Shown: piece by piece, positions 11,473-29,945 of the stretch
Position numbering within the stretch: position 1 is the first letter of the stretch
Layout of the letters: each line of letters opens with the position of its first letter
Origin: Bacteroidia bacterium
GTDB lineage: Bacteria > Bacteroidota > Bacteroidia > 2-12-FULL-35-15
Direction: 5' to 3'
DNA: 64,000 nucleotides
Assembly (NCBI GenBank): GCA_030654175.1
Contig: JAURXZ010000006.1
Span: 62,001 to 126,000, forward strand
Program-made: the position numbers and the translations under genes
Notes under the pieces: generated by a model
Database searches by the model: none
What the model was told of the DNA's origin: nothing
Seen by the model: the letters and a program-made list of their open reading frames with translations, nothing else

Positions 11473-12180
11473 ATGGGACGTGTATTCGAAAAGCGTAAGT
11501 ATAAAATGTTTGCCCGCTATGATAAAATGGCAAAAGGCTTTACCCGGATAGGTAAAGAGATAGCAATTGCAATAAAACTTGGAGGAGGAGATCCTGCAGG
11601 CAATGCTCGTTTACGAATGGCTATTCAAAATGCAAAAGGTTTGAATATGCCTAAAGATCGTATTGATGCTGCTATAAAGCGCGCAACTTCAAAGGACGAA
11701 TCCAATTTAGAAGAGATAGTATATGAAGGCAAAGGCCCGTATGGTGTTGCCATTTTATGTGAATGCGCTACAGACAATCCTACTCGTACTGTTGCCAATG
11801 TCCGGATGAATTTCAACCGCACTGGCGGTGAACTGGGTAAAACAGGATCTTTGGATTATTTATTTGAACGTAAAGGAGTTTTCAGGATCAAGAATGAAAA
11901 CATTAATATGGACGAGCTGGAAATGGAATTGATCGATTTTGGTGCAGATGAAATTGAAAGTGATGAGGAAGAAATTGTGGTATATACCGCATTTACTGAT
12001 TTTGGCACAATGCAAAAAGCATTGGAAGCGAAAAAACTACATATCATCAGTTCCGAATTAGAACGCATTCCAAACTCCACCGTTGAATTATCTGATGAAC
12101 AAATAGAAGAAGTAATGCTTTTGGTTGGAAAATTAGAAGAAGATGATGACGTGCAAACTGTTTATCATAATTTGAAGTAA
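11473..12180 (+). CDS. yebC: YebC/PmpR-family transcriptional/translation regulator
   Basis: MGRVFEKRKYKMFARYDKMAKGFTRIGKEIAIAIKLGG; NARLRMAIQNAK..NMPKDRIDAAIKRA; YEGKGPYGVAILCE. Confidence 0.9.
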   Translation: MGRVFEKRKYKMFARYDKMAKGFTRIGKEIAIAIKLGGGDPAGNARLRMAIQNAKGLNMPKDRIDAAIKRATSKDESNLEEIVYEGKGPYGVAILCECATDNPTRTVANVRMNFNRTGGELGKTGSLDYLFERKGVFRIKNENINMDELEMELIDFGADEIESDEEEIVVYTAFTDFGTMQKALEAKKLHIISSELERIPNSTVELSDEQIEEVMLLVGKLEEDDDVQTVYHNLK

Positions 12181-12183
12181 AAC

Positions 12184-12231
12184 CTCACCCCTTAATCCCC
12201 TCTCCATTTGGAGAGGGGATTGGGGGTGAAG
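12184..12231. repeat. Palindromic repeat CTCACCCCTTAATCCCCTCTCC-attt-GGAGAGGGGATTGGGGGTGAAG (copy 1)
   Basis: Perfect 9-bp inner arms CCCCTCTCC/GGAGAGGGG with imperfect outer arms. Confidence 0.9.
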
Positions 12232-12541
12232 CTTTTAACGCATTGATAATTTTTTCTATTACCGATTGAATATCATTTAAAACCTCCTCATTAGTAAAAC
12301 GTATTACTGTTATACCGTATTCATTTATAACCTGGGTCCTGGCCTCATCCAATTGTATTTGTTCTTTTTTATTGTGATATTCGCCATCAATTTCAACTAC
12401 CAGTTTTTTTTCGTGGCAATAAAATTCTGCGACAAATTTGTCGATAGGATGTTGTCTTCTGAATTTACAATTTTCAATTTTTCTGTTTCTTATAACTTCC
12501 CAAACTATTTTTTCAGCTTTTGTTGTGTTAGCTATTCGCAA
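12185..12541 (-). CDS. DUF559 (PD-(D/E)XK, Vsr-like) endonuclease-family protein; possibly N-terminally degraded
   Basis: KAEKIVWEVIRNRK...CKFRRQHPIDKFVAEFYCHEKKLVVEIDGEYHNKKEQ...GITVIRFTNEEV; homologous-looking residues continue upstream to 12622 without an ATG; C-terminus SPPIPSPNGEGIKG is encoded by the palindrome. Confidence 0.75.
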   Translation of the reverse strand: MRIANTTKAEKIVWEVIRNRKIENCKFRRQHPIDKFVAEFYCHEKKLVVEIDGEYHNKKEQIQLDEARTQVINEYGITVIRFTNEEVLNDIQSVIEKIINALKASPPIPSPNGEGIKG

Positions 12542-12622
12542 CAGATGGGCATTTTCAAAAAGTATAGGTGCAGCGCCTTTAAATAAATTTTCAATGCTAT
12601 TAGCTTCGCCAATCTCACTTTT

Positions 12623-13504
12623 TTAATACATACCCTCATTCCCCTCTCCAATTGGAGAGGGGTTAGGGGTGAGGTGATATAACGTTAACCCTGCAATTGG
12701 GGTTTCTATTACCGTTTCGATATTAACTCCTTTATTCTCAGCCACAGCTCTTAATATATTACTATAATAAAAAGCTACCGAGCCGACACAACTTAGTTTT
12801 AATTCTTTGTGTCTTTTATATTTACAAATGTGTCTATCAAAGAATTGTTCAAAACAATTTGCTACCAGGTCAATAACAAATTGCTCCTTTAAATTTTGGT
12901 AAATAAATTTACTAAAAGATGCTAAAAACCTGTTTGGCATTGTTTTTTTATAAACAGCATCTAAAATATCATTGGTACTCAATTTGAATCTTTCAAAAAA
13001 ACGGGCAGATAGATCAGCCGGCATTTCACCATTCAAATAAGATTGAATGAAGGTTTTGGAAATGTGAGCTCCACTTCCTTCATCACCCAATATAAAACCC
13101 AATGATGCCCTATTTTCAACAATAGTTGAACCATCATAATAACAGGTATTTGAACCGGTTCCTAAAATAGCCGCTATACCGGGGTTGGTACCGCATAATG
13201 CACGGGCAGCTCCAAGCAGATCGGTATTAATTTCAATAGTTGATAATGGAAAATTTTGCTTTAGTGAATTACGAACAATTTCTTTTTTAGAATCGGCTCC
13301 ACAACCTGCACCATAGAAGAAAATTTCAGATGGTGAATGAGTGTTTAATTGTGGTAAAAGCTCTGATTTTATAATTTCAGAAATTTCAACTTCAGTTTGA
13401 AAATAAGGGTTGAAACCTTGAGTGGAATATTGATGTATTTTTCTTTGATCGTCAATTAAACGCCAATCAGTTTTAGTGGAGCCGCTATCTGCAATTAAGA
13501 TCAT
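12623..13504 (-). CDS. BadF/BadG/BcrA/BcrD-type ATPase (N-acetylglucosamine kinase-like)
   Basis: LIADSGSTKTDWRLI; ILGTGSNTCYYDG; LGFILGDEGSGAHI. Confidence 0.85.
   Translation of the reverse strand: MILIADSGSTKTDWRLIDDQRKIHQYSTQGFNPYFQTEVEISEIIKSELLPQLNTHSPSEIFFYGAGCGADSKKEIVRNSLKQNFPLSTIEINTDLLGAARALCGTNPGIAAILGTGSNTCYYDGSTIVENRASLGFILGDEGSGAHISKTFIQSYLNGEMPADLSARFFERFKLSTNDILDAVYKKTMPNRFLASFSKFIYQNLKEQFVIDLVANCFEQFFDRHICKYKRHKELKLSCVGSVAFYYSNILRAVAENKGVNIETVIETPIAGLTLYHLTPNPSPIGEGNEGMY
12632..12676. repeat. Palindromic repeat, copy 2 (ACCCTCATTCCCCTCTCC-aatt-GGAGAGGGGTTAGGGGTGAGGTG)
   Basis: Same inner palindrome as 12184..12231; encodes the C-terminal NPSPIGEG of the BadF-type ORF. Confidence 0.9.
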
Positions 13505-29906: not shown

Positions 29907-29945
29907 AGCCTCCTCTCCTTTGGAAAGGGATTAAGGGGAGAGGCT
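29907..29945. repeat. Degenerate third copy of the CCTCTCC palindromic repeat between pyrB and pyrR
   Basis: AGCCTCCTCTCCTTTGGAAAGGGATTAAGGGGAGAGGCT. Confidence 0.55.

Follow-up and report, generated by a model that had tools for sequence, protein, structure and literature searches.

A palindrome-bracketed DUF559 nuclease gene in a Bacteroidia genome as a candidate selfish unit

The window analysed here is a stretch of 64,000 nucleotides from a Bacteroidia bacterium (contig JAURXZ010000006.1, positions 62,001 to 126,000 of the forward strand). Between two convergent genes it carries a short nuclease reading frame with a palindrome at either end, laid out as follows:

11473..12180, plus strand: yebC, the conserved convergent neighbour (PF01709, E=2.9e-55)
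12183..12231, no strand: left palindrome, CCTCACCCC-TTAAT-CCCCTCTCC-ATTT-GGAGAGGGG-ATT-GGGGGTGAAG (direct reading)
12197-12218, no strand: core of the left palindrome, CCCCTCTCC-ATTT-GGAGAGGGG (direct reading)
12185..12622, minus strand: DUF559 nuclease reading frame, EDxHD / PD-(D/E)XK-like (PF04480, E=5.7e-32)
about 12236-12553, minus strand: DUF559 domain within that frame (PF04480)
12623..13504, minus strand: badF-type kinase/ATPase, the host gene (PF01869, E=4.7e-9)
12633..12674, no strand: right palindrome, CCCTCATT-CCCCTCTCC-AATT-GGAGAGGGG-TTA-GGGGTGAGG (direct reading)
12641-12662, no strand: core of the right palindrome, with an AATT loop (direct reading)

Direct reading together with the Pfam matches confirmed the arrangement described by an earlier, sequence-only reading of the window, in which a DUF559 frame is bracketed by two palindromes and the whole lies between the convergent yebC (plus strand) and a BadF-family gene (minus strand). 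As that reading had also claimed, the left palindrome encodes the C-terminus of the nuclease, SPPIPSPNGEGIKG; the right one encodes the C-terminus of BadF, HLTPNPSPIGEGNEGMY. A degenerate third copy had been placed at 29907-29945, where a hairpin (CCTCCTCTCCTTTGGAAAGGG) is indeed present, but it is weak, degenerate and not clearly of the same family. Across the window's own genome (5.1 Mb), the core CCCCTCTCC-N4-GGAGAGGGG occurs at 18 exact sites and at 29 sites with three or fewer mismatches, a count far above chance, while a reversed control pattern has no site in the same 5.1 Mb. Own-genome palindromes at six loci (L005, L007, L012, L016, L019 and L020) are embedded in a longer repeat (GGGCGTTCCC...GGCGGGCTT), possibly the result of nested insertions. 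The genome holds only two DUF559 genes, the second of which also has a palindrome-coded tail, of a different palindrome type.

The window nuclease scores 110.3 bits against PF04480, for which the gathering cut-off is 20.6. A profile search of the PDB returned 3hrl (E=1.3e-31) and 3r3p (E=1.9e-6), the latter being the catalytic domain of I-Bth0305I, the exemplar of the EDxHD homing endonucleases (PMC3943268). An AlphaFold2 model of the protein (pLDDT 80.4) was matched to I-Bth0305I by Foldseek with E=2.6e-4 and a TM score of 0.80 by target length, and no structure beyond 3hrl and 3r3p matched the model at E<1e-3. By profile and by predicted fold, the DUF559 nuclease matches this EDxHD homing endonuclease. 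DUF559 dN/dS lies mostly between 0.04 and 0.15 among pairs with unsaturated dS, and the nuclease is therefore under selection.

The window copy itself has probably decayed and may be weak or inactive, judging from the stop after badF, the missing ATG and a D to E change at a conserved acidic position. Its frame continues straight from the TAA stop of badF in the same reading frame, and the first common start codon is a TTG at 12541. The core residues E67, D69, H73, D82 and R98 are present, whereas position 56 of the aligned domain deviates, being E in the window and D in 99% of 167 rows. In two genomes of the same genus, badF and DUF559 are read through as a single frame (444 aa in G002, 437 aa in G029), with a palindrome-coded linker at the joint. 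In the window, DUF559 was probably once fused to the C-terminus of BadF and was later split off by a stop codon. At the sequence level, past constraint on it is still readable in a dN/dS of 0.12 relative to the G002 copy.

In order to place the locus in a wider context, 166 non-identical DUF559 domains were sampled from the genus, the phylum and a named genome set, 156 of them with enough flanking sequence for comparison. Searching 150 nt to either side of the domain finds a GC-rich hairpin in at least one flank of 106 of the 156 and in both flanks of 45, compared with 36 of 857 (4%) and 0 of 857, respectively, for random positions in the same loci; at the cut-off used, about one third of the sampled domains are without a clear hairpin. 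Spacing is tight: in most cases 15-75 nt separate the end of the 5' hairpin from the domain, and 0-30 nt separate the domain from the start of the 3' hairpin. When flanks were compared with one another in inverted orientation, those belonging to a single unit scored above the 99% control level in 104/156 units, and those taken from different units had the control median. Flanking hairpins are also found around plasmid DUF559 genes of Azospirillum, Sinorhizobium, Synechocystis, Picosynechococcus and Pseudanabaena; for E. coli DUF559 the case is weak.

The pairing extends to whole genomes: in 36 congeneric genomes, each of three DUF559 clades has a palindrome type that goes with it. The window clade occurs in three of the 36, and precisely these have the highest counts of the window's N4 type (21, 31 and 32 copies, against 14 or fewer in the others; p=1.4e-4). 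Genomes with the second clade are enriched in the second type, CTCTCCTT-N1-4-CAAGGAGAG (p=1.4e-4), and the third type, CCCCTCTCAAGAGGGG, is present in 8/8 carriers of its clade and 3/28 other genomes (p=5.5e-6); these p-values ignore shared ancestry, the patterns were themselves derived from sequence next to DUF559, and the counts include the bracketing copies. The third type reaches up to 91 copies in one genome (91 matches in G013). Palindromes also occur where their clade is missing: 14 N4 sites in G021, and 28, 15 and 10 strand-summed matches of the second type in G012, G019 and G020. In G332, which carries a window-clade DUF559, N4 palindromes number just two in 4.2 Mb, and they bracket the DUF559 gene; the only two second-type sites of G003 lie one at each end of its DUF559. 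The association between DUF559 and palindromes proposed by the sequence-only reading proved strong, both in the flanks of the 156 domains and genome-wide by palindrome type. Solo CCCCTCTCAAGAGGGG palindromes in G013 are often paired in inverted orientation at a spacing of about 110 nt, tails outward (for example in L318 around 1508), the reverse of the arrangement around DUF559.

DUF559 units reside in frame, within host genes or at their ends. Ten host reading frames were confirmed by Pfam, namely IleS, LeuS, RecG, Acs, MetH (at two sites), HsdR, ValS, MetG and PurL, and HsdM, a RecB-like helicase, PaaZ and IspF were added from flanking sequence alone. In one HsdR frame (L206, 175-3315), a GIY-YIG domain and a DUF559 domain are both in frame. 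Host-site labels change 24 times on the DUF559 tree, compared with a mean of 50.8 after shuffling, which indicates that DUF559 lineages tend to keep their site; several lineages nevertheless share MetH, LeuS and other sites. The tree is built from only 113 columns for 167 rows and resolves no deep forks. Introns and inteins were rejected as carriers of DUF559, with no intron family at the insertions in nine scanned loci and no intein domain among the Pfam matches of the ten host frames. A group II intron domain was matched downstream of one metH locus (L027, 3113-3187, minus strand), about 1.3 kb from the DUF559 insertion and on the opposite strand, and is unrelated to it.

The unit had been regarded as potentially mobile, and empty sites in relatives are found both at badF-yebC, in most relatives, and in metH. 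With the association described above, the proposal of the sequence-only reading has stood up to both of the refuting conditions that it had named. DUF559 is present at three of the 30 badF loci fetched (G000, G002 and G029). At loci where badF and yebC were both located, the gap between them measures 464-500 nt with the unit (500 nt in the window) and 38-330 nt without it, except for 745 nt in L222. The closest relative, G008, whose badF is 91% identical, has only a half-palindrome relic in this position. A solo palindrome lies in frame inside BadF of G002 and G029, where it reads CKY[D/N]LTPNPSP[T/L]GEGKLKLSC vs CKYKKHKELKLSC in G008, and it is absent from all other BadF sequences readable by the search pattern. 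One loop of MetH exists in several states across the genus: some alleles are empty, some carry one of two DUF559 lineages, one has a DUF559 copy with an internal deletion (L273), and others have a solo palindrome (L256 and L261). The same loop carries a different palindromic repeat (CACCCTGAGCGGAGTCGAAGGG) in L270 of G026, which suggests that it is an insertion hot spot. Since DUF559 insertions fall in variable loops or gaps with indefinable junctions, no target-site duplication of the kind made by insertion sequences or MITEs was established.

According to our analysis, positions 12183-12674 represent one copy of a selfish unit of about 450-500 bp, in which a homing-type nuclease spreads together with its cognate palindromes; we give this reading a probability of roughly 60%. 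We posit that the nuclease would cut a target that is either an unoccupied allele or a palindrome-like site, as its homology suggests, and that repair of the break may then copy in the whole unit or a palindrome alone, so that DUF559 would move the palindromes and could act on them in trans. Where a palindrome stays open over a long stretch of frame (as in LTPNPSPxGEG and similar peptides), it may serve as a tolerated peptide linker, by which the unit could live in frame in essential genes, or at their ends, without splicing. Internal deletion or loss of the nuclease would finally leave solo palindromes behind, a direction that would fit the allele states seen, and we favour the view that solo palindromes are dispersed or decayed products of the unit. 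The nuclease-palindrome unit looks like a little-noticed selfish element that recurs across bacteria rather than a local oddity. The broadest form of the proposal is that DUF559 constitutes a pan-bacterial class of mobile element, whose hydrolytic nuclease, of the homing type, recognises its palindromes and spreads them, as units and as solo copies, and which persists in frame in essential genes without splicing; we regard it as an even bet.

The strongest competing explanation is that only the gene homes: DUF559 would copy itself into empty alleles of fixed host sites, and the palindromes would be linkers or passengers that the enzyme does not recognise. The homology of DUF559 to a homing endonuclease, the clustering of its lineages by host site and the repeated use of orthologous gene positions would all be explained in this way. 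Passive palindromes would not, however, be expected to follow the DUF559 clade across whole genomes, where as many as 91 copies lie dispersed, and a match between the two flanks of a unit would be needless for passengers. We therefore consider homing alone unlikely, while keeping it as the alternative to be taken most seriously.

Much less probable is a role for RAYT (HUH) transposases as movers, which would make the palindromes ordinary REPs and DUF559 a passenger between two of them. Y1_Tnp genes are available in 29/36 congeneric genomes, but a CCCCTCTCC-type hairpin was found at only one of 24 inspected Y1_Tnp loci, and the remaining hairpin-bearing loci carry different repeats, for example ACCCCGAGGCAGAGCCTCGAGGT. 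In the window's own genome, no Y1_Tnp match lies within 10 kb of the window-type palindromes, and the two palindromes of the window have neither a GTAG nor a CGTC tag. As Y1_Tnp loci of the same genomes carry different repeats, with the one exception in 24, spread by RAYTs is unlikely, and we rejected them as movers of the window-type palindromes.

The least credible alternative is that DUF559 is a Vsr-like host repair or restriction gene and its hairpins transcription terminators or chance neighbours: a precedent exists in Caulobacter, whose DUF559 protein VsrA has a link to DNA damage and a proposed role as a nuclease in mismatch repair (PMC12907096), but hairpins that flank both sides and sit within the open frames of genes such as MetH and LeuS, in which a terminator would do harm, led us to reject the terminator reading, and patchy presence with copies inserted in genes is an insertion pattern that does not fit a plain host repair gene, which was likewise rejected.

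If DUF559 does form such a pan-bacterial class, it would be a second REP/RAYT-like system built on an unrelated enzyme. The unit offers an enzyme for palindromic repeats that RAYTs apparently leave unexplained. It also provides a testable origin for peptide inserts of the NPSPxGEG type in bacterial proteins, and it points to a selfish nuclease behind a domain of unknown function, one that survives in genes such as leuS, ileS and metH with neither intron nor intein. An active copy would represent a compact nuclease with a clade-specific palindrome preference. The literature searched, which excludes most subscription journals, contained no description of a link between DUF559 and palindromes, and an earlier account is possible.

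Several known systems share parts of this design. Caulobacter VsrA and Vsr resemble it in the DUF559 domain and the PD-(D/E)XK-like nuclease, yet VsrA is a proposed mismatch-repair enzyme tied to a methylase, whereas DUF559 here belongs to an insertion-like unit. Rickettsia palindromic elements are tolerated in frame inside protein-coding genes and are not known to be linked to a nuclease; the DUF559 units share this in-frame tolerance and differ in that their palindromes bracket a nuclease. I-Bth0305I and its relatives among the EDxHD homing endonucleases are similar in the sequence and fold of the catalytic domain and in the reuse of conserved gene sites. Unlike them, the DUF559 units are flanked by palindromes, have neither a group I intron nor an intein at the insertion, lack the extended DNA-binding region of I-Bth0305I and are accompanied by dispersed solo palindromes. 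With REP/RAYT (TnpA-REP) REPtrons they have in common a small nuclease gene between inverted palindromes, relatives of these palindromes dispersed in the genome, and a pairing of enzyme and palindrome by class. The resemblance to REP/RAYT drawn by the sequence-only reading holds for this architecture and ends at the enzyme, which is an EDxHD/PD-(D/E)XK nuclease and not an HUH (Y1) tyrosine transposase, at the GTAG/CGTC tags, absent from the window palindromes, and at the in-frame position of DUF559 units within genes. Because the unit departs from a defining feature of each class considered, namely the RAYT enzyme and tag on the one hand and carriage by an intron or intein on the other, we rate it as a new class built from known parts.
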